The notes under the pieces are model-generated. The model did no database searches and was not told the origin of the DNA. It was given only the letters and a program-made list of their open reading frames with translations. From Fibrisoma limi BUZ 3 (GTDB lineage Bacteria; Bacteroidota; Bacteroidia; Cytophagales; Spirosomataceae): a stretch of DNA of 64,000 nucleotides. The stretch is taken from the NCBI RefSeq assembly GCF_000296815.2, contig NZ_CAIT01000006.1, positions 378,777-442,776 on the forward strand, read 5' to 3'. Shown here piece after piece: positions 105-10,775 of the stretch. The position numbers and the translations under genes are program-made. Each line of letters starts with the position of its first letter. Positions within the stretch are counted from its first letter, which is position 1.

Positions 105-2144
105 TTAGCTGACGATGGGGGGATGGGCTGGTAAGGCGATAATAATCTCCGTGCCTTCGCCTTCCTTGCTTTCTACGTGTAGTTGTCCCTGGTGAGCTTT
201 AGTAACTATCTCGTAACTCAGAGAAAGACCAAGGCCGGTTCCCTCGCCGGTGGGCTTCGTTGTGAAAAAAGGCTGAAATATTTTGGGCTGGAGGGCGTCA
301 GGAATGCCCGTTCCATTGTCCTTGACCCGAATCTCCACATGTCCGTCAACGGCCTGCGTCCGGACGATCAGTTGGGGCTGGTAGGTAGTGTCGCCATCCG
401 TATGTTGCTGTTGCCGGATAGCATAAAAGGCATTATTGTAGATGTTGAGCAGTACACGCCCGATGTCCTGCGGAATCAGCTCAACCGGGCCGATGCCTGG
501 ATCGTAACGGGTAACCAGCTCAGCCTGAAACTGCTTATCGTTTACCTGTTGGCCCCGATACGCCAGATTCAGGTATTCATGAACCAGCGCGTTCAGGTCG
601 GTCGGGCGTTTTTCGCCTGATCGCTGGCGGCTGTGGGCCAGCATTCCCTTGACAATCGCACTGGCCCGCTGCCCGTGCTGGTGAATTTTTTGCAGGCTCT
701 GCGTCAGGTCGTTCACGAGTTCGTCGGCGTAGGTTTTTTCCGCGTCGGGCAACTGCCGGATAGGACCTTCGGCCAGTTCGGTAATCAGCTCTGAACTTAC
801 TTCCGAGAAATTGTTGACGAAGTTGAGGGGGTTCTGAATTTCATGAGCAATGCCGGCCGTTAGCTCCCCCAGTGAAGCCATTTTTTCTTTCTGAATCAGT
901 TGTTGCTGGGCAGCCTGTAGCTGAGCCAGCGCCTGCTCGGCTTTACTGCGCTCCTGTTCAATGTCTTTTTTTTGGCGGCTTAGCAGGGCGTTGGTACGTT
1001 GCTGTCGCCGGTTGACGCGCCACAGCAGCAGGGCGGCCAGGAGAGCACCTATGACCAGGGTCAGCAGACCGTAGATACGGATGCGATTCTGGTACTCGGC
1101 CTTAGCGGCTTCGATATCCTGCTGGCGTTGCTGCTCTTCAAAATCCAGGGTAAGCATTTGTTTAACCTTCTCCTGGTTGAAAAGATTGTCTTTGGCGGCC
1201 ACGGCTACCTGGAAGTAACGCAGGGCCTGAGCGTCGTTACGCCCCCGGGTAAGCTCAACCAGCAGTTCACTGGCGCGCAAGACTCCCCGGAGGTACTTAC
1301 TACGCTGGCCCAGATCGAGCGACGAGCGGGCATACATCAGGCTGGAATCAACAGCGCCCTGCTGTTGAAACAGGCGCGCCATATTCAGCCGGGCATCAGC
1401 TTCAACAAACGCATTGCTATTTTCACGGCTTATAGGAATTGCCTGCCGAAAGTAATCGAGCGCAATCGCATTTCTGCCCCGTTTGGCCTGTATCTGCCCC
1501 ATCACATGAAGCAGGTTATCCAGGTTTGCCCGTCCGACCGGCTGGCGGGCCAGCGGAAGTGCCTGTTGCAAATAATGCTCGGCGGAATCCAGCTCATTGA
1601 GATACAGATAGGTTTCGCCGATATTTCCATATAAGATACTGGGTGTTAATCCGTCAAAGCGGTTATTCTGGCGACTTGACTGCTCGAAAAGCTCCATCGC
1701 TTCTCTAAAGTACTGCAGTGCACGCTGGTAATCTTTCTGTTCAACGTAAGGGATTGCCAGGTTGTTTAACCCTTTGAAGGTACCTTCCAGGTCATTGATC
1801 GACCGAGTGATGGACAGTGATTGCTGGAGGAGCCGAATCCCTTTCGGGTAATCGCCCAGATCGGATAGGGCGCCCCCCATGATGTTCAATGCCTTGGCTT
1901 CTCCGCGTCGGTCGCCCAGCCGCAGCGCCAGTTGGTACCCCTGTTGCCCCAGACGGTAGGCAGTATCCGGTTTTTCGTATTTATACAGATTCGCCAGGCG
2001 GTACAACATCTGCACCCGGAGGGTATCTTGGGGTTGCGTAGCTAATTTTCGGTTGAGGCTGTCGACCTCGTCAGATTGTGCGTAACCTGTCACAACACTC
2101 GTTACGAGTATGAGGCTTATTCCTATTCGTTGGATATAGTTCAT
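105..2144 (-). CDS. TPR-repeat membrane sensor histidine kinase
   Basis: A 679-residue sensor kinase. The start at 2144 was chosen because it gives a clean signal peptide (MNYIQRIGIS..., cleavage near GYAQ); a longer frame opens 18 codons upstream but begins with hydrophilic residues. Residues about 45-330 are a run of tetratricopeptide repeats, expected to lie in the periplasm. One membrane segment lies near residues 355-375 (LLTLVIGALLAALLLWRV), followed by a coiled coil, a HisKA-type phosphoacceptor helix (GELTAGIAHEIQNPLNF, His near 434) and a HATPase domain ending in the G box GTGLGLSLSYEIV. No response regulator or output domain is fused and none is adjacent, so the partner is unknown. 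The same kinase core (LNFVNNF-EVS motif) recurs in the split kinase at 60-62 kb. The kinase assignment is firm; the stimulus is unknown. Confidence 0.9.
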   Translation of the reverse strand: MNYIQRIGISLILVTSVVTGYAQSDEVDSLNRKLATQPQDTLRVQMLYRLANLYKYEKPDTAYRLGQQGYQLALRLGDRRGEAKALNIMGGALSDLGDYPKGIRLLQQSLSITRSINDLEGTFKGLNNLAIPYVEQKDYQRALQYFREAMELFEQSSRQNNRFDGLTPSILYGNIGETYLYLNELDSAEHYLQQALPLARQPVGRANLDNLLHVMGQIQAKRGRNAIALDYFRQAIPISRENSNAFVEADARLNMARLFQQQGAVDSSLMYARSSLDLGQRSKYLRGVLRASELLVELTRGRNDAQALRYFQVAVAAKDNLFNQEKVKQMLTLDFEEQQRQQDIEAAKAEYQNRIRIYGLLTLVIGALLAALLLWRVNRRQQRTNALLSRQKKDIEQERSKAEQALAQLQAAQQQLIQKEKMASLGELTAGIAHEIQNPLNFVNNFSEVSSELITELAEGPIRQLPDAEKTYADELVNDLTQSLQKIHQHGQRASAIVKGMLAHSRQRSGEKRPTDLNALVHEYLNLAYRGQQVNDKQFQAELVTRYDPGIGPVELIPQDIGRVLLNIYNNAFYAIRQQQHTDGDTTYQPQLIVRTQAVDGHVEIRVKDNGTGIPDALQPKIFQPFFTTKPTGEGTGLGLSLSYEIVTKAHQGQLHVESKEGEGTEIIIALPAHPPIVS

Positions 2145-2234
2145 GCTGAAGATGAGCGTGTTGTTGGTCGCGTGGTCGGTACCATCAGCATTTTTCACTG
2201 ATCATACGAGTATACTAAGGGTACCGATCTAATC

Positions 2235-4352
2235 CTACTGCTTCTGTATTTTCAGCGTTTGGCGCTGCGTGGGGGTGGCTACCTGCAACAGATACAGACC
2301 AGCCGCTTCTCCTACCCGCAGCCGCACCACCTCCACGGCCTGGGCCACCGGCCGAATCAGCCCATCAACCAGCCGACCTCGCTGATCAACCACCTGCAGG
2401 TTCAGCGGCTGGCCCTGCGCTCCGCGTACGTCCACCTCCACGCTTTCTCCTACCACAGGGTTGCCCAGCACCACCACCTGCAATTCGTCCACGGCTTCAA
2501 CCACGCCCTGACGGGCTCCGCATGCCTTGGGTGTGAAGCTAAGGTCAGTTTCGTTCCAGCCCCCGCTGGTGTTGCGCTGGCGAGCCCGCAGTTTGAGAGC
2601 CCGACCCAGGTGCTTGCTCTCCAGAACGAAGCGATTGCTCATACTCTCCCAACCGTTGGTCACACTGTTAATATGGTACTCAACAGGCTGGCCGTTGCCC
2701 CCCGTGCTGCGTAACGTGAGCTGGCGGCTGGCGCAGTCGTAGCTCTCCACCAGTAACTTGAGCGGCTGGGCCTGCACGATAATAGTGGCAAATGCGGGTT
2801 CACTGACGCAACTACTTACCTGACAGGTGGCTTGATAGACCAGGGTGCCAGTCTGAATGGTTGGCACGGTGATGGTGGTGCCTAAGCCAGTGGTGCCATC
2901 GGGTCCTGTCCAGCTTATAGCGCCCGGGCAACCCTCAATAAGCAGGGTGACTGTGCCGGAATACTGAGGCACTGTAAGGGTAGACTGCCCCGCAGGATAG
3001 AGTTGTCCGGGCTGGCCGGAAGGGGTTTTAACGGTGGGAGGATTGGGAATCGGGTTGACTATGAGTGTAGTAGAAGCCGAAGCCGAACAGCCTTGGTCGT
3101 TGGTGCCGGTTACGGTGTAAGTACCGGGGAGTGTGACCGTAACGGGGTTGGTCGAGCTAGTAAAATTATCCGGCCCCTGCCACTGGTAGGTATCCGCTCC
3201 TGAAGCGGTAAACCTAGCCGTTTGGCCCTGGCAGATAGCCGTAGCCGAGGGGCTGATGCTAACGCTGGGATTGGGGTTGACCATCAGGTTGAAGGTCGTA
3301 GAAGTCAGAGTACTAACCGAGTTGCTGGCGACGACTACATACGCACCGGTATCCCAAGGCTGCACATTAGCCAGCGAGAGCGTGCTCGACGTTTGGCCGG
3401 CTATAACTTGTCCGTTGCGATACCACTGGTAGGTCCGCACGTTACCCGAAGTGGCGACGCCGACCGTAACGGTCGCTCCGGGGCAGACAGTGGAGCTGCT
3501 GGGGGGCTGGGTAGTAATGGTTAGCGGATTACAATCCGCCTGTACATCAGCTATCGAGCTACAGCCTGGGGCATTATTGTTGATTTCGACTGATCCTGAT
3601 GGCTGGGCAAGATACTGACAGAATGCCGTGATTGCACATTCGCTTAATCTAGTATTATCAAAAATGGCTAAATGGCCAATGCTGGTCAGCTTGTTCAGGG
3701 CGGTCAGACTGGTTAGACTACCGTTCGTATGAATAACTAAGGCTTGTGAGACCGTGGTCAGGTTATTTAGTCCTTCGAGGTTACTTAACCTCGGATTATT
3801 GTCAATAAATACTCGTGTCAGTTGGGTTACTTTGTTAAGAGCCCCCAGGGTTTCCAGGTCATCGTTGAAGAACAGAGTTAAATTTCCGGGGATGTTTGTC
3901 AGGTTATTTAGGCCCCCCAAACTTAGTAGCGAGCCACAATTTGAGATTCGCAGGTTTCCGCCAATGCTGGTCAGCTTGCTTAGGGCGAACAGATTTTCGA
4001 TCCGGACGCACTCATCTATAGTTAAACTTCCAGTGATGGTAGTAAGGTTATTAAAGCCATCAACACTGGTTAACCCCGGGCTTAACCGAATATCTAAATT
4101 ACCATTGACAGACTGGATACCGCTCAAAGAGTTTAGGTTAGAAATAAAAGGCCCTCTAATCTCTAACGCTCCGGGGAGGTTGACGCATCCCGGTGGAAAT
4201 GCATCGACATCGGCCTGCGTGGATAAGATGATTTTACCGGTTGGACACTGAGCCCATCCGCTTAGTGGCAGCAGAGCCGTCAGCAGCGTCAAACAAAGCA
4301 GGGGTATCGTCATCGTCCTGATGAGCCCCCTACGAAGTAAAGGTAGTTTCAT
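2235..4352 (-). CDS. T9SS-sorted LRR-like/Ig-domain secreted protein
   Basis: A 705-residue exported protein. It has an N-terminal signal peptide (hydrophobic LLCLTLLTALLPL, cleavage after GWAQ), then residues about 40-270 with short leucine-rich repeats of the receptor-L-domain type (recurrent LNNLT-I-GNL pattern). Two or three Ig-like beta-sandwich domains follow (WYRNGQ and YQWQG motifs), and the last ~85 residues match the Bacteroidota type IX secretion C-terminal domain (VVLGNPVVGESVEV; GLYLLQVAT). Such proteins cross the outer membrane through the Por machinery and are released or surface-anchored. Binding targets are not evident. The 3' end is nearly identical in DNA to the end of the next gene (4545-7334), and both promoters carry a shared 38-bp element. 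An alternative start lies 13 codons inside, at MTIPLL. Confidence 0.85.
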   Translation of the reverse strand: MKLPLLRRGLIRTMTIPLLCLTLLTALLPLSGWAQCPTGKIILSTQADVDAFPPGCVNLPGALEIRGPFISNLNSLSGIQSVNGNLDIRLSPGLTSVDGFNNLTTITGSLTIDECVRIENLFALSKLTSIGGNLRISNCGSLLSLGGLNNLTNIPGNLTLFFNDDLETLGALNKVTQLTRVFIDNNPRLSNLEGLNNLTTVSQALVIHTNGSLTSLTALNKLTSIGHLAIFDNTRLSECAITAFCQYLAQPSGSVEINNNAPGCSSIADVQADCNPLTITTQPPSSSTVCPGATVTVGVATSGNVRTYQWYRNGQVIAGQTSSTLSLANVQPWDTGAYVVVASNSVSTLTSTTFNLMVNPNPSVSISPSATAICQGQTARFTASGADTYQWQGPDNFTSSTNPVTVTLPGTYTVTGTNDQGCSASASTTLIVNPIPNPPTVKTPSGQPGQLYPAGQSTLTVPQYSGTVTLLIEGCPGAISWTGPDGTTGLGTTITVPTIQTGTLVYQATCQVSSCVSEPAFATIIVQAQPLKLLVESYDCASRQLTLRSTGGNGQPVEYHINSVTNGWESMSNRFVLESKHLGRALKLRARQRNTSGGWNETDLSFTPKACGARQGVVEAVDELQVVVLGNPVVGESVEVDVRGAQGQPLNLQVVDQRGRLVDGLIRPVAQAVEVVRLRVGEAAGLYLLQVATPTQRQTLKIQKQ

Positions 4353-4378: not shown

Positions 4379-4445
4379 CAAACGTAGGTCGTAGGGTAGG
4401 TTAAAGGCTACCAGGATTGTTCCATTTTGGCCAGAATTATACCAA
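4379..4445 (-). promoter_or_regulatory. Promoter with 38-bp upstream element (copy 1)
   Basis: On the minus strand a Bacteroidota -7 element, TACGTTTG (4386-4379), lies 27 bases before the start codon at 4352. Upstream of it, 4408-4445 carries a 38-bp sequence repeated exactly at 7510-7547. In both places 21 bases separate the repeat from the -7 element. No TTG sits at the usual -33 position, which suggests an activator-dependent promoter with the repeat as the binding site. The role is inferred; the repeat and the spacing are directly visible. Confidence 0.6.
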
Positions 4446-4544
4446 AACGAGCGAAACGATGCCTTTTTCAGCGCCTACCGGGGCAACAACCGTCCCGGCT
4501 CGTTCTCACGCTGGGCGAGTGAGCCGGGACGAGCCATCGAGTAG

Positions 4545-7334
4545 CTATCGCTTGAGTATTTTCACCGTTTGCTGCTGCGTGGGCGTGGCTACCTGCAACA
4601 GATACAGACCAGCTGCCTGGCCTACCTGCAGCCGCACCACCTCCACGGCCCGGGCTACGTTGAGCTGACGCCCATCAACCAGCCGACCTCGCTGATCAAC
4701 CACCTGCAGGTTCAGCGGCTGGCCCTGCGTTCCGCGTACGTCCACCTCCACGCTTTCCCCCATCACTGGGTTGCCCAGCACCACCACCTGCAAGGCCACC
4801 TCGGGTGATTCGGCTGCCCCCTGCCGGGCTTGGCAGCTCTGCACCGTCACCGCGATGGGCTCGGAGGTAACCACCCCACACTCCCCGCTGATGCGTACAA
4901 GGTAGGTCTCACTCTGGCTCACCCTGATCAGCTTCAGACTGTTGGTGGTCGTGCCCGTCTGCTTGCTGGGGTTGTCGGGCAGCTTGTTGACAGTGGCCAC
5001 GCTGCCGCGGAACCACTCATACTTGAGAGCAGTGCCACTGGCCTGTACCGTCAGGGTCAGATCGCTGCCCGCGCACACGCTCTGTGCCGGGGGGACGCTC
5101 AGGAGCTGGGTAGTGGCGTTGACTGTCAGCGTGAAGCGGGTGGGCACACTCTCACAACCGGTGGCCGGGTCCACCTGGCTGACCTGGTAGGCGTAGCTGC
5201 CGGCCTGAGCCAACACCACCTGTGAGCCAGTGAGCACTTGGCCCTGTTCAGTGCTGTAGCGGAGCTGGTAGCTGGCATTGGTGCGGCTGACGAACTGGCT
5301 GAGCTCAACCGGCCCCTCACTGGGGCAGAGCTGACGGCGGGTGGAGGTGGGTGGGGGAGCCACCGGTCGCTGGTTGACTGTCAGGCGGGCTTCGGCCTGC
5401 TGGCTGGTACAACCCTCGGCCGAGACACGGACGATGTAGCGGCCGGCCTTGCCACCCTCGTTGACGTTGACGGTATAAGTGGGCGTAGTAGCCAGCACAG
5501 GCTGGCCCGCGTCGGCGCTGTTCTTGAACCAGGCGTAGGTCAGGCCCTGAGGTCCCTGGGCCTGCACGGCGAAGGTAACTGAAGTGCCCACGCAGGCGGT
5601 TTGGCTGGCGGGGGGCTGGGTGATAGTAAGGGCCGTAGCACCGGTGACGGTGGTGGTCGCGGTGGTTGAGCAGCCCTGGGGCGAGGTAAGGGTCACTGAG
5701 TAGGTCCCGGGCTGGCTGACGCTGGCCGCGTTGTTGTCACTGCTCTGGCTGAGGCCGGGTCCGCTGAAGGTGTAAGTGCCTAGCCCGGCGGGCAGGGCCG
5801 TGAGGCTGACGCTGGTCTGGGAGCAGCTCAGAGGGCCGTTGCTGGACAGACTGACGGTGGGAGTGGGGTTGACCGTCAGGTTGGCCGCAGCGGTGGCCGA
5901 GCAGCCGGCCGTGGTGGTGGCCGTCACCGAGTAGGTGCCGGTGGCTGAGACGCTGATGGCGGGGGAGGTTTGACCCGTACTCCAGCGGTAGGTATCGGCA
6001 CCGGAAGCGGTGAGCGTGGCGGTCTGGCCCCCACAGATGGCCGGGGCCGAGGGGCTGATGCTGACCGTAGGTTGCTGAACTGTCAGGTTGAAGGCCGTGG
6101 AGGTAACGCTGTTGCAGCTTGTGACGACCACGTAGTAGCTGCCTGAACTGGCCGTGGTGGTGGTGGGCAGCGAGAGCGTAGCCGAGGTCTGGCCACTGAC
6201 CACACCCCCGTCCTTGTACCACTGGTAGGCGCTGACGGTACCGCTGGTGCTGACCGACGCGGTGACCGAGGCCCCGGCGCAGACGCTCTGGCTGGTGGGG
6301 GGCTGGTTGGTGATACCGACTTCGGTACCAGGCGAAAAGCGCTGGATGCGGTGGTTGAATTGCTCGGACACATAGACATTGCCCGCGCCATCCATAAACA
6401 CCCCGCTTGGACGATTCAACTGATTGGGGGCGGAGCCTTGTCCATTGCCTCCGGCTACGGTCACCCCTGTACCGGCACCCGGTGCCCAGCGCTGGATGCG
6501 GTAGTTATCATAATCAGCCACATAGACATTACCCGACACGTCTACAAACACCCCAGTTGGAAAATCCAACTGATTGAGGGCGGAGCCTGCTCCATTACCC
6601 CCAGCCACTGTGGTGCCGGATAGGGCTCCCGGTGCCCACTTCTGGATGCGGTCGTTACCAGTATCAGCCACGTAGACATTGCCCGCGCCATCCACAAACA
6701 GCCCATTTGGACTTAATAACTGATTGGGGGCGGAGCCTAGACCATTGCCCCCGGCGACCGTAGTGCCGGATGTTGCACCGGGGCCCCACTTCTGGATGCG
6801 GTGGTTGAAATTATCAGCCACATAGACATTGCCAGACCCATCCACAAACAGCCCAGTTGGAAAATTCAACTGATTGGGAGCGGAGCCTTCTCCATTACCC
6901 CCGGCTACGGTCACCCCCACACTGGCCCCGGGGGCCCACCGCTGGATGCGGTTATTACTAGCATCGGCCACGTAGACATTGCCCAACATGTCCACAAACA
7001 CCCCATATGGAGAGAACAACTGATTGGGAGCGGAGCCTTCTCCATTACCCCCGGCCACGGTCACCCCCGCACTGGCCCCGGGGGCCCACTTCTGGATGCG
7101 GTCGTTACTAGTATCAACCACATAGACATTGCCCGAGCTGTCCACAAACAGCCCGCCTGGAAAACTCAACTGATTGGGGGCGGAGCCTATACCATTGCCC
7201 CCGGCTACGGTGGTGCCGTTGGGGCAGAACTGGGCCTGCCCGCTCCAGGGCAGCAGCGCTGCCAACAAGGTCAAACAAAGTAAGGTCAGCGTCCGGGCGC
7301 TGATGCGGAGTCGATAAGGTAACGTTGGTTGCAT
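4545..7334 (-). CDS. T9SS-sorted NHL-propeller/Ig-domain secreted protein
   Basis: A 929-residue secreted protein, starting at MQPTLPYRL; an in-frame ATG six codons upstream is also possible. After the signal peptide (cleavage near SGQAQ) come six tandem 50-residue NHL-type repeats with the core FVDGSGNVYVAD-N-RIQKW, enough for a six-bladed propeller. Four to five Ig-like domains follow, of the kind common in Bacteroidota adhesins (TASGADTYRWSTG; CSVTAT-type strands). The last ~85 residues are a type IX secretion sorting domain, almost the same as in the gene downstream. Cys pairs in the Ig region may form disulfides outside the cell. A role in surface binding or adhesion is plausible but not shown; nothing in the sequence indicates enzymatic activity. 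Confidence 0.85.
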   Translation of the reverse strand: MQPTLPYRLRISARTLTLLCLTLLAALLPWSGQAQFCPNGTTVAGGNGIGSAPNQLSFPGGLFVDSSGNVYVVDTSNDRIQKWAPGASAGVTVAGGNGEGSAPNQLFSPYGVFVDMLGNVYVADASNNRIQRWAPGASVGVTVAGGNGEGSAPNQLNFPTGLFVDGSGNVYVADNFNHRIQKWGPGATSGTTVAGGNGLGSAPNQLLSPNGLFVDGAGNVYVADTGNDRIQKWAPGALSGTTVAGGNGAGSALNQLDFPTGVFVDVSGNVYVADYDNYRIQRWAPGAGTGVTVAGGNGQGSAPNQLNRPSGVFMDGAGNVYVSEQFNHRIQRFSPGTEVGITNQPPTSQSVCAGASVTASVSTSGTVSAYQWYKDGGVVSGQTSATLSLPTTTTASSGSYYVVVTSCNSVTSTAFNLTVQQPTVSISPSAPAICGGQTATLTASGADTYRWSTGQTSPAISVSATGTYSVTATTTAGCSATAAANLTVNPTPTVSLSSNGPLSCSQTSVSLTALPAGLGTYTFSGPGLSQSSDNNAASVSQPGTYSVTLTSPQGCSTTATTTVTGATALTITQPPASQTACVGTSVTFAVQAQGPQGLTYAWFKNSADAGQPVLATTPTYTVNVNEGGKAGRYIVRVSAEGCTSQQAEARLTVNQRPVAPPPTSTRRQLCPSEGPVELSQFVSRTNASYQLRYSTEQGQVLTGSQVVLAQAGSYAYQVSQVDPATGCESVPTRFTLTVNATTQLLSVPPAQSVCAGSDLTLTVQASGTALKYEWFRGSVATVNKLPDNPSKQTGTTTNSLKLIRVSQSETYLVRISGECGVVTSEPIAVTVQSCQARQGAAESPEVALQVVVLGNPVMGESVEVDVRGTQGQPLNLQVVDQRGRLVDGRQLNVARAVEVVRLQVGQAAGLYLLQVATPTQQQTVKILKR
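6309..7208 (-). repeat. Six in-frame 150-bp tandem repeats (NHL blades)
   Basis: Six consecutive 150-bp units encode the NHL blades of the protein at 4545-7334. Each begins VAGGNG and contains GSAPNQL, GNVYV-D and RIQ-W/F. The DNA similarity between units is high (for example the block around 'ctggatgcgg' recurs every ~150 bp), which points to recent internal duplication or gene conversion. Unit number could vary by slippage or recombination without breaking the frame. Confidence 0.85.
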
Positions 7335-7480
7335 TGAGTTAGTTGGAAACAAAAGTGGAGAAGGAAGAAAGACCCCGCAGTCCTAGGCGCAGCCCACAAA
7401 GCAGCGTTGAGGTCATACGAGCAGCTGGTCGGACAAAAAGATGTATTAAGAGCATGATGATAGAGCGTAATTAAGCTGCG

Positions 7481-7547
7481 CAAACCTAGCCCACAGCCGG
7501 GGCCAAAGTCTACCAGGATTGTTCCATTTTGGCCAGAATTATACCAA
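7481..7547 (-). promoter_or_regulatory. Promoter with 38-bp upstream element (copy 2)
   Basis: Minus-strand -7 element TAGGTTTG (7488-7481) for the NHL/Ig gene starting at 7334, with the second exact copy of the 38-bp element at 7510-7547, again 21 bases upstream of the -7 box. The leader is long (~140 bases). The same copy lies 54 bases upstream of the divergent HTCS gene at 7602, so it could serve both directions. The element includes TTGGTATAATTCTGGCCAA on the minus strand, which has TTGG/CCAA ends. Confidence 0.6.
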
Positions 7548-7601
7548 GTCAGCAAACTTTCCAACATATTTTAGTACCTTCGGAGTAGTCATGTCAGCCT
7601 C

Positions 7602-10600
7602 ATGATGCTCCTATTCCGCTTTTTACTTCTTAGCCCTCTGTTGGTCGGCAGCGTACTAACGGGGCCACCCTTAAAAGCCCAGCAATTCATGCTGCCCCCG
7701 GCTGAACGCACGCTTACGCAACCGCCCGGTATCAATCTGTTCAGTGCGTTCATGACTCAGGACAACCGGGGGAATTTGTGGCTTAGCTCGTCTAATGGTG
7801 TGATCCGCTACGATGGTCGGCAATTGCGCGTGTTCCATGCCCCGGGGCACCCTCAGGACGATGCCCTGGGCCGGGTAACTACCGATAGTCGGGGGCGGGT
7901 CTGGTTACGCTATTCCTTCGGCAACGATGAGAGTAAGCTGGCTTATTTTGACCCACAGACCCAGCAAATCCAGTTTATTTCCGACACCACCCGGCTGGTG
8001 CGGGAGTTCCTGGCCAAAGACGGTATCCGAACGCTGTTTGTCGATCGGCACGATCACCTCTGGATTGGCCGGATACAGACCGGATTGCTGCGCGTCGATC
8101 CCCGCACTCTTTCCGTTGAGCCGTTTTTACTCGACAAAACGGAGGTGAACAGCATTGACCAAAGTTCCGACGGTATGCTTTGGGCTGGGACTTCCACGGG
8201 GGTGTACTCGGTTAATCCGGTCAGCCGCCAGGTTCGGCGCTACTTTGATAAGGATGGCCCTCTCCGCATTCAGGCGGATAATCCCATCACCGCCCTGCGC
8301 GTCCGGTCAAGTGGAGAACTCGTACTGGGGCTGTACAATAAAGTGGCTGTTGTCAATCCGTCGTCGGGAGAGATTCGGCAAGTTGACCTGCCGCTTCCCA
8401 CGCCAACCAGTCGGTTATGGACCAATAAGATTGTCGTTGACAGTCAGAAGAACGCCTATTTTTCTGTGGGTACCCTGGTTTTCCGGATGAACCCACAGAA
8501 TCAATTGCAACGGCTGGAATTTGCCTATCCAGCCGAAAAAGTGATCAGTATCTGGGTCAGCCAGGGGCAACGGCTGGGCAACAACCGGCTCTGGGTGAAT
8601 GCGGGGCAGCAACTGTACGCGTATGACCTGGGTCGGCTGCGGGCCGTTCCTCCACTGAATATTCTCGACGTATCAATTAACGGTACCCGGCTCGTCCAGA
8701 ACGAAAAGCAACGGGAAGAGCGCTTCAGGCGCGATACGTCGGGGCAGGCTTCTATTTACCTGAAGGAAGGTGATTTTCTGTCGCTGCGTTTTCTGCCTCA
8801 GGTTGGGGTTGTATCGTCGAACTACCGTTATAAACTCGATGGCCATGATTCGCAGTGGGCGGTTTACAGCGATACTTACGGACACGCTACGTACCAGCTT
8901 AGAGCCGGTACCTACTCCTTTGCGCTTAATCGGGCCAGACCTATGGGCGGCTGGGACCCTCAGGTGGCCTACATTCGAATTCAGGTGGAGCCGCCGTTCT
9001 GGCGAACAGCCTGGTTTCTTAGCCTGACAATTCTGGTGCTGGGCGTTACGGGATTCTGGCTCATCCGAAGTTGGAACCGCCGGCGTAGGCTTCGGCAGGA
9101 ACTGGCCCGCCGGGAGTTCGAAGCCGAAACCCTTCGGAAGATGGACATTATGAAGAGTAATTTCTTCGCCAACATTACCCATGAGTTCCGGACGCCCCTG
9201 ACCATCATCCTCAACGCAACCGAGCAGCTCGTTGATACGCCCCTGAACGCCACGCAGCAGCAACAAACCGATGCCATTCAGCGGCACGCTCATCAGCTTC
9301 TGCGGCTAATCACCGAAACGCTCGATATGTCGCGGCTGGATGCCGGAAAACTGGACGCTCATCCCCAACTGGGCGATCCGGTAGCGTTTATCCGACAGGT
9401 GGCTGCCCAGTTTGACGGGCTGGCCGGACAACGGGGTATAACCCTGACCTGGGAGGGCGATCCGGGTACGGATGAACTGGTGTACAGCTTTGATGATGAC
9501 AAATGGGAGAAAATTGCGTATAACCTACTGTCGAATGCGCTTAAGTTTACGCCCGAAGGCGGGCAGGTGAACGTATCGGGGCGTATTGTAGCCCCCGACC
9601 GTTTCGTGCTGCGCGTGGCCGATACGGGTATTGGCATTCCGGCGCAGCAGCTTACGCATATCTTCGACCGGTTTTATCAAGTTGACTCCGGCTCAACCCG
9701 CGCCTACTCTGGAACCGGCATTGGGTTGGCCCTGGTGAAGGAACTGACCGATTGGCTCGGAGGGCGCGTGACCGTCGAGAGTGACGAAGGGAAGGGCAGC
9801 GTTTTCACCGTCGAATTGCCCATCACGAACCCGTATGCCCAGCAACTGAACGAAACAGACACAACCTCTGACTCAGACCGCGACAATCCGCAGAGGCAGG
9901 CAGCGCCGGTCAGCCAATCAGCGCCAGAGACAGCGCAACGCCAAACCGTTCCACTGGGAACCGCGGCCAGGAATCGTCCGTTGCCGGCTAAAAATTCCGA
10001 TACGTCGATTGGCGAGAAGCCTTTGCTGCTGCTGGTGGAAGACAATTCCGACCTCCGGATGCAGATGGCTACGTATTTGTCTAAACAATACCGGATTGCT
10101 ACGGCCGCTACAGGTCGGGAAGGGCTGGAGATGGCCATTGCGGAGATTCCCGATTTGATCGTTAGCGATGTGATGATGCCTGAAATGGACGGCTATGAGC
10201 TTACCCGAACTCTCAAAGCCGACGACCGGACCAGCCATATTCCCATCGTACTGCTCACGGCCCGTTCCTCACCCGACAGTCGACTGGTGGGTTTGCAGGC
10301 CGGGGCCGACAACTACCTGGGCAAACCGTTCAGCTTAGCCGAATTAAACCTGCGGCTGGGCAATGCGCTCCGCACTCGTCAGCAGTGGCAGCAGCGATTT
10401 ACAGAGCAGGCAGTTTCCGCATTGAAGGCTACCTCATCTACTCCAGCGTCTGATCGGGAAGAGCGGTTTATTAATACCCTACGCCAGCACATCCTCTCTA
10501 ACCTGCATGAAGTCGACCGGATGGATGTCGACTGGCTGGCCGAACAAGCTGGTATGAGCCGTACCCAGCTTCATCGCAAACTAACCGCGCTTACATCGCT

Positions 10601-10775
10601 TACTCCTAATCGGTTTATTCACCGCGTCCGGCTCGATCGGGCGGCCGAGCTTTTGCAGTCGGGTGAATTTAATGTGGCCCAGGTTGCCTATGAATTAGGC
10701 TACAGCTCGCAGTCATACTTTGCTAAATTATTTCAGGAGCAGTTCGGGTATTCGCCTAAAGCACTCAAGGTGTAA
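7602..10775 (+). CDS. Hybrid two-component system (HTCS) regulator
   Basis: A 1057-residue one-protein signalling chain typical of Bacteroidota. In order: signal peptide (1-27), two-component regulator propeller repeats (about 40-350; NRGNLWLSSSNGVIRYDG, DHLWIG), Y_Y_Y domain (about 390-455), a membrane segment (about 465-488), HisKA (FFANITHEFRTPL, phospho-His 527), HATPase (GTGIGLALVKEL), a receiver domain with phosphoacceptor Asp856 in IVSDVMMPEMDG, and a C-terminal AraC-type DNA-binding domain (about 960-1057). The periplasmic propeller senses a ligand and the AraC domain acts on DNA. HTCS genes usually sit beside the genes they control; here the divergent neighbour is the NHL/Ig T9SS protein, and the shared 38-bp element is a candidate target. 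The ligand is unknown. Confidence 0.93.
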   Translation: MMLLFRFLLLSPLLVGSVLTGPPLKAQQFMLPPAERTLTQPPGINLFSAFMTQDNRGNLWLSSSNGVIRYDGRQLRVFHAPGHPQDDALGRVTTDSRGRVWLRYSFGNDESKLAYFDPQTQQIQFISDTTRLVREFLAKDGIRTLFVDRHDHLWIGRIQTGLLRVDPRTLSVEPFLLDKTEVNSIDQSSDGMLWAGTSTGVYSVNPVSRQVRRYFDKDGPLRIQADNPITALRVRSSGELVLGLYNKVAVVNPSSGEIRQVDLPLPTPTSRLWTNKIVVDSQKNAYFSVGTLVFRMNPQNQLQRLEFAYPAEKVISIWVSQGQRLGNNRLWVNAGQQLYAYDLGRLRAVPPLNILDVSINGTRLVQNEKQREERFRRDTSGQASIYLKEGDFLSLRFLPQVGVVSSNYRYKLDGHDSQWAVYSDTYGHATYQLRAGTYSFALNRARPMGGWDPQVAYIRIQVEPPFWRTAWFLSLTILVLGVTGFWLIRSWNRRRRLRQELARREFEAETLRKMDIMKSNFFANITHEFRTPLTIILNATEQLVDTPLNATQQQQTDAIQRHAHQLLRLITETLDMSRLDAGKLDAHPQLGDPVAFIRQVAAQFDGLAGQRGITLTWEGDPGTDELVYSFDDDKWEKIAYNLLSNALKFTPEGGQVNVSGRIVAPDRFVLRVADTGIGIPAQQLTHIFDRFYQVDSGSTRAYSGTGIGLALVKELTDWLGGRVTVESDEGKGSVFTVELPITNPYAQQLNETDTTSDSDRDNPQRQAAPVSQSAPETAQRQTVPLGTAARNRPLPAKNSDTSIGEKPLLLLVEDNSDLRMQMATYLSKQYRIATAATGREGLEMAIAEIPDLIVSDVMMPEMDGYELTRTLKADDRTSHIPIVLLTARSSPDSRLVGLQAGADNYLGKPFSLAELNLRLGNALRTRQQWQQRFTEQAVSALKATSSTPASDREERFINTLRQHILSNLHEVDRMDVDWLAEQAGMSRTQLHRKLTALTSLTPNRFIHRVRLDRAAELLQSGEFNVAQVAYELGYSSQSYFAKLFQEQFGYSPKALKV

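Follow-up and report, generated by a model that had tools for sequence, protein, structure and literature searches.

A 38-bp direct repeat at two type IX secretion cargo promoters of Fibrisoma limi is a probable operator of the adjacent hybrid two-component regulator

The cargo genes, the regulator and the shared element

The window analyzed here is a 64,000-nucleotide stretch of the Fibrisoma limi BUZ 3 genome (contig NZ_CAIT01000006.1, positions 378,777 to 442,776), in which an identical 38-bp sequence, TTGGTATAATTCTGGCCAAAATGGAACAATCCTGGTAG on the minus strand, occurs at 4408-4445 and again at 7510-7547. Each copy precedes a gene for a predicted surface protein exported by the type IX secretion system (T9SS), and the second copy lies between its cargo gene and the divergent gene of a hybrid two-component system regulator (HTCS). 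A sequence-only reading of the locus had pointed to this exact pair, which sequence matching confirmed, and had proposed a shared activator site that joins the two cargo genes in one small regulon, with the adjacent HTCS as the candidate regulator.

Cargo 1 (2235..4352, minus strand) encodes a protein of 705 aa with a Receptor L domain, Ig-like domains and a T9SS type A tail. Cargo 2 (4545..7334, minus strand) encodes ~929 aa, counted from the ATG at 7334, with an NHL-repeat propeller, Ig_7/CHU_C domains and likewise a type A tail; its entry in the list of open reading frames (ORFs) begins at an upstream TTG, 7352. The C-terminal sorting domain TIGR04183 scores 29.5 and 28.0 bits in the two genes versus a curated cut-off of 23, and by this measure both proteins classify as T9SS type A cargo, as had been claimed for them.

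The HTCS gene (7602..10775, plus strand) encodes 1057 aa comprising one propeller, a Y_Y_Y-like beta-sandwich, a transmembrane helix, HisKA, HATPase_c, a receiver and an AraC-type helix-turn-helix (HTH) domain. Its ATG at 7602 is 54 bases from operator copy 2, the distance originally given. Pfam HisKA, HATPase_c, Response_reg and HTH_18 are all above cut-off in this one polypeptide, and HTH_18 covers residues 979-1055 (10536..10766, plus strand), where the two HTHs read SRTQLHRK and GYSSQSYFAK. The sensor has Reg_prop/SGL matches, and a Pfam Y_Y_Y match is not listed for it. An AlphaFold model of sensor residues 26-500 (475 aa, pLDDT 86) contains a single propeller, a beta-sandwich and a C-terminal helix, and our reading of the strand order suggests that the propeller is seven-bladed. 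The best solved fold matches by E-value (8e-19 to 9e-16) are BT4663 (4a2m/4a2l), BT4673 (3ott/3va6) and BT3049 (3v9f), with low TM-scores of the model to these entries (0.29-0.52 by query length). The protein thus has the periplasmic Reg_prop sensor with Y_Y_Y domain and transmembrane segment that characterizes HTCSs, with one propeller, not two. Its neighbors are T9SS cargo genes and not a SusC/D polysaccharide-utilisation locus, control of which is usual in published HTCSs and not strictly defining.

At both copies, 21 bases (CCTTTAACCTACCCTACGACC and ACTTTGGCCCCGGCTGTGGGC) separate the element from a -7 box on the minus strand, TACGTTTG at 4379..4386 in the cargo-1 promoter and TAGGTTTG at 7481..7488 in the cargo-2 promoter. 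The two spacers agree at 10 of 21 positions when compared by eye, and the leaders are unlike. No TTG is found 16-23 bases before either window box; copy 1 is without one from 15 to 23, and copy 2 has one at 15. The boxes, their spacing, the differing spacers and leaders and the lack of a good -33 TTG are therefore as first described. The TAnnTTTG box of Flavobacterium psychrophilum covers -12 to -5 (PMC9723704); if the window boxes are placed in the same way, the 38-mer would reach from about -71 to about -34. The sequence has the features of a class II promoter, namely an operator that ends at -33/-35, a fixed spacing to the -7 box and no -33 consensus.

The whole genome (G000; 7,626,970 bases, 14 contigs) contains two matches to the 38-mer at up to three mismatches, both of them the window copies at the cargo promoters, and a relaxed two-half pattern returned the same two sites and no third. 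One hundred dinucleotide shuffles of the window gave no match at this threshold. These numbers fit the proposed regulon of two surface proteins; a mobile repeat, named beforehand as the contrary outcome, is rejected, as the genome has just two copies.

The 38-mer is an imperfect direct repeat with a pitch of 20 bp and the halves TTGGTATAATTCTGG and ATGGAACAATCCTGG. Its best internal 15-mer self-match covers 11 of 15 positions at this pitch, which was equalled in 27 of 20,000 mononucleotide shuffles (pitches 18-22). In copy 1 (4408..4445, minus strand), half-site 1 (TTGGTATAATTCTGGCCA) lies at 4428-4445 and half-site 2 (ATGGAACAATCCTGGTAG) at 4408-4425; in the identical copy 2 (7510..7547, minus strand), the half-sites lie at 7530-7547 and 7510-7527.

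Conservation of the layout and the genes behind it

A search of 222 family genomes with the sensor part found 20 clade members, including the window HTCS, in 14 of them, and an order sample of 390 genomes gave none outside the family; one further member (L062) lies on a contig labelled Flavobacterium sp. SUN052, contig13. In 15 of the 20 members a repeat of 20-bp pitch, close to the ~21 bp typical of HTCS operators, lies upstream of the HTCS gene and points at the divergent gene. These repeats were sought in a wide upstream region with the pitch fixed at 20, and neither box nor spacing entered the score. A free-pitch search confined to 260 bp directly upstream failed to find degenerate or distant sites, including the window's own site and L026, L034, L039 and L040.

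Together with window copy 1, the 15 regulators give a set of 16 sites, apart from which L062 was checked. A box of the form A..TTT[GA] starts at +21 after the repeat in 14 of the 16 sites and at +20 in one (L035), where chance would give 0.0025 per position and site. The remaining site (L036) has CTTCTTTG at +21, and the box of L062 likewise starts at +21. Across the 60 bp scanned at the 16 sites, only two other such boxes occur, both at -1. The first aligned HTCS residue lies anywhere from 19 to 363 bp away from the site. Because the box spacing is fixed while the distance to the HTCS varies, the site is tied to the cargo promoter and not to the regulator gene. The L062 contig carries the operator, T9SS-type cargo and, judged by eye, two resolvase-like recombinase genes nearby, and might reflect either lateral transfer or a mislabelled record.

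The genes facing these regulators mostly encode predicted surface proteins. A T9SS type A-like tail is present, by aligned ends, in the facing protein of nine of the 15 regulators (window, L027, L030, L031, L034, L037, L038, L039 and L040; the cargo genes of L037 and L038 are split in the ORF lists), and three others (L026, L028 and L029) face proteins with a different common tail. L035 faces a YadA-head protein with an S74 chaperone domain, and L032 and L036 face operons whose third gene has a type A-like tail. TIGR04183 matched 17 of the 25 cargo C-termini submitted at E 0.01, a count undifferentiated by locus, and 19 of the 25 are type A-like by our reading of the alignment. SusC/D-like neighbors, recognized by eye from the length and order of the ORFs and their lipoprotein-like starts, were seen only at L043 and L044 among the 20 stretches of 11-19 kb. 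Judged by sequence, the genes or operons opposite these operator-bearing HTCSs are of adhesin type, mostly T9SS cargo, and not polysaccharide-utilisation loci. The cargo proteins are mosaics whose shared modules recur in many combinations.

The tail shared by L026, L028 and L029 is a conserved end of ~60 residues (roughly MYxxKAGxWxDxxxWSCGRxPxxTDxVTLNH ... SRLxLGGN) that also occurs in the large proteins of L042 and L113. It replaces the T9SS type A tail, and four of the five proteins (all except that of L042) are encoded behind this operator. None of the T9SS tail models could be assigned to it, and it possibly represents a further domain for sorting or anchoring.

Scanning the 222 family genomes with an operator pattern at up to two mismatches gave 52 matches in 34 genomes versus, by our count, 22 for the reversed control. 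Eighteen of the 52 have zero or one mismatch, and most of those with two look like chance. The scan missed the known L026 and L035 sites, and the spacing in its extra matches is no evidence because the pattern itself required it. Away from the HTCS genes, extra sites resembling L029 (GGTTC or GGGTC) were found in Spirosoma profusum BT702 (G223:C1:162570, C11:200044 and C17:9870), one resembling L030 (GGTTC, 20-bp spacing) in Larkinella arboricola (G170:C3:20873) and one resembling L040 (GGTTC) at G208:C3:394690. They precede adhesin-type or T9SS-type genes (the second cargo of L029, L112, L113 and L114) and, in L115, a three-gene operon. At L112, a 364-aa ORF that looks transposase-like by eye stands between the site and the adhesin-type gene.

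The operon behind the operator in L115 (L115:2286-11501) has counterparts in L032 and L036. Its first gene encodes a beta-lactamase-fold protein, and in L115 the second protein has a Pfam match to the delta-endotoxin N-terminal domain (E 3e-25). The third protein is very large; its tail in L032 and L036 is type A-like, and the L115 protein is cut by the stretch end at 1992 aa. In S. profusum, a match to the type VI secretion Hcp family (PF05638; L029:3795-4355, minus strand) lies between the second operator and the T9SS-type adhesin gene.

Repeats of another kind, such as ATGGAACATTAGAGCAAAAG in two copies, stand before TAnnTTTG-like boxes in L116-L121 (genomes G190, G194, G012 and G004), upstream of very large or T9SS-type proteins. 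These genomes are without a clade member or have only the one adjoining SusC/D-like genes, and other HTCS classes may also drive such genes.

Operator classes and helix-turn-helix residues

Half-site 2 falls into three classes. It reads GGAAC at the window locus, L026, L035, L036, L037 and L038, GCAAC at L027, L028 and L032, and GGTTC at L029, L030, L031, L034, L039 and L040. All nine AAC regulators have SRxxLHRK in the first HTH and SQSYF in the second, and all six TTC regulators have SRTQLNRK in the first. The second HTH contains SPSHF or SPSYF in the five TTC regulators with an uninterrupted domain; in L. arboricola (L030, G170:C10) an in-frame stop lies within the AraC domain of the HTCS, yet the genome still has two operators of its class. 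The half-site class thus goes with residues of both DNA-binding HTHs. Within the SQSYF type, the residue before SQ is N in regulators with GC sites and S or G in those with GG sites (nine of nine), a rule that is only contextual because N occurs with GG among the SPS type.

In a tree from which the DNA-binding domain was left out, at least two changes are needed for AAC/TTC and at least two for GG/GC, and the residues follow. The variable residues align with recognition-helix positions of SoxS that in MarA contact bases. The base-contacting residues of MarA are W42, Q45, R46, Q91, Q92, T93 and R96. Of these, R46 and W42 appear in PMC11633057. Related soil bacteria keep the layout with different "address" sequences that track changes in the regulator.

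In each of the three genomes with more than one site-bearing member, the operator classes all differ, three of three in G223, three of three in G208 and two of two in G170; a fourth G223 member, L033, is site-less and outside this count. As 3.6% of label shuffles match this exclusivity, a figure not corrected for kinship, the within-genome exclusivity is suggestive only.

A proposed mechanism, its alternatives and known systems

These results make it very probable that the adjacent HTCS has its operator in the 38-bp element, which it would bind as a dimer to activate both cargo promoters. The idea of a shared activator site and of the HTCS as its activator gains support from the same layout at 15 of 20 clade members and in L062, as well as from the half-site class that tracks the HTH residues of this regulator. 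We infer binding, its dependence on phosphorylation, activation as its direction and the signal as follows. The two AraC-type domains of an HTCS dimer would bind head-to-tail to the two 18-bp half-sites, whose 20-bp pitch corresponds to two helical turns and would place both domains on the same DNA face. The operator would end about one base upstream of -33 and stand in for the absent -33 element, so that the phosphorylated HTCS could recruit sigma-A RNA polymerase to the -7 box 21 bp away in a class II-type activation. In this way one periplasmic signal, received by the single-propeller sensor, could switch on two T9SS-type surface proteins. Bacteroides HTCSs are described as having an inhibitory contact between receiver and DNA-binding domain that is relieved by phosphorylation (PMC11253607), and the same relief is assumed here.

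Binding by the HTCS might instead repress the cargo promoters or mainly autoregulate the HTCS gene, as copy 2 is placed between the two divergently oriented genes, with the HTCS start 54 bp away, and a -7-like box (TACCTTCG, 7575..7582, plus strand), found by sequence match, could serve the HTCS gene itself. However, it is the cargo -7 box that keeps a fixed distance from the site, whereas the interval to the HTCS differs between loci. All 15 loci have the repeat oriented towards the divergent gene, and copy 1 has no adjoining HTCS gene. At both window promoters, which have no TTG 16-23 bases before the box, the site stops shortly before -33, a place that class II activators occupy. We regard this alternative as improbable.

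Far less room is left for the 38-bp identity as a remnant of a recent duplication of a cargo gene with its promoter, without regulatory role. The two cargo genes have exact DNA stretches in common in their tail-coding regions, and their Ig-like modules are 54% identical over 159 aa, so that a partial duplication did occur. Yet the identity ends sharply at the 38-mer, with spacers that agree at fewer than half of their positions and unlike leaders, and the layout recurs before different, only partly related cargo in other genera. A functionless duplicated promoter as sole cause is rejected by this sharp edge and by a layout kept at 15 regulators.

It is equally hard to credit that a different, unlinked regulator, AraC-type or two-component, is what binds the element and that the HTCS is a bystander. 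The genome does encode 15 further protein matches to the HTCS, all from residue 389 or later (the kinase, receiver or AraC part), 12 of which extend to the AraC domain. But the site recurs upstream of this HTCS clade with a half-site class that tracks the HTH residues of that HTCS, and among the upstream regions of paralogues that were scanned (12 of 15; L070, L074 and L077 left out) only one, L076, has a repeat above shuffles, of other sequence and pitch. L076 (G000:C8:504500-514500) is a second HTCS of this genome, of a longer form, and faces a gene with a T9SS-like end by eye; the direct repeat between them has a 22-bp pitch and matches at 14 of 16 positions.

Several observations weigh against activation by the HTCS through this operator. 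The repeat is missing in five of the 20 clade members, of which L033, L041 and L042 have diverged HTHs and L043 and L044 are those that adjoin SusC/D-like genes by eye. The spacing is 20 bp, not 21 bp, at two promoters (L035 and L114), and half-site 1 of the window is degenerate (TTGGTAT). A TTG lies 15 bases before the box in six of the 16 sites, copy 2 included, and 16 or 18 bases before it in two (L031 and L037), so that a weak, mostly shifted -33 is possible in eight of the 16. The scoring of clade repeats favored ATG[GC](AA or TT)C half-sites, and the half-site classes were therefore partly selected for. With two independent changes per trait, significance is impossible for the association of class and residues (sign test p 0.5), and L062, with H in the first HTH, SPSHF in the second and half-sites GGTTT/GGGCT, is a partial exception. 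The S. profusum ortholog, with 35 of 38 operator positions and ~77% of the HTCS identical, faces a different cargo protein, and the other genome of the same genus that was compared is without the HTCS and without the site.

Downstream of cargo 1, a TPR histidine kinase ORF (105..2198, minus strand) begins after ~36 bp on the same strand and is possibly co-transcribed from the cargo-1 promoter; if so, it would give the regulon a second signalling protein.

If operator activation by the HTCS is correct, the locus offers a defined model of T9SS adhesin control in which one regulator serves two promoters. It would also provide an activator-dependent layout for promoters of the TAnnTTTG class, with 21 bp between operator and -7 box and with natural replicates, and a testable link from recognition-helix residues (SQSYF or SPS[HY]F, H or N) to the half-site (AAC or TTC). 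A regulator of the sugar-degradation type seems to control cell-surface display here. As far as is known, how non-gut Bacteroidota choose the T9SS proteins they display is little studied; HTCS-type regulators form a very large family whose targets are mostly guessed from their neighborhood, and the literature we met treats HTCSs as regulators of polysaccharide utilisation. More tentatively, and with somewhat more doubt than confidence, we suggest that this clade of single-propeller HTCSs from Spirosoma-type bacteria, formerly of polysaccharide utilisation, operates a switchboard of T9SS-type mosaic adhesins. Paralogues within a genome would be separated by mutually exclusive operator classes (GGAAC, GCAAC and GGTTC) set by few residues of the two recognition helices, the adhesin behind a conserved operator would be exchanged, and each regulator would control one to four surface proteins. 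Such a switchboard would let the cell choose its surface by separate external cues.

Our literature searches, with most subscription papers outside their coverage, found no paper on HTCS control of T9SS cargo, and neither rigid promoter geometry nor within-genome operator classes for HTCSs. HTCS operators as such are already known, so that what is new here would be the T9SS-adhesin targets, the rigid geometry and the HTH-linked operator classes. For Bacteroides thetaiotaomicron, Ravcheev et al. 2013 (PMC3878776) give motifs of 16 of 36 HTCSs; these are direct repeats whose units lie 21 bp apart on average, which is interpreted there as binding by a dimer with both monomers on one DNA side. The window HTCS resembles the regulators of that study in having propeller sensor, kinase, receiver and AraC domain in a single polypeptide, in its two-site direct repeat about two helical turns apart (21 bp there versus 20 bp here) and in that related DNA-binding domains go with related motifs. 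In contrast, the B. thetaiotaomicron targets reported there are polysaccharide-utilisation genes, whereas those found here are T9SS or other adhesin-type genes. The rigid 21 bp from operator to -7 box is a feature of the loci studied here. BT4663, BT4673 and BT3049 share the Reg_prop propeller and Y_Y_Y domain with the window sensor and differ in having two seven-bladed propellers each (PMC5121618).

A second parallel is RamA, a relative of MarA and SoxS, which at a class II promoter places one HTH at the -35 element (PMC8811837). Both systems combine an AraC-type domain with a site at -33/-35 and a defined spacing to the core box. RamA and MarA bind as monomers, whereas the tandem repeat suggests a dimer here, and unlike in the RamA/MarA class II case, the core promoter is of the Bacteroidota TAnnTTTG type.

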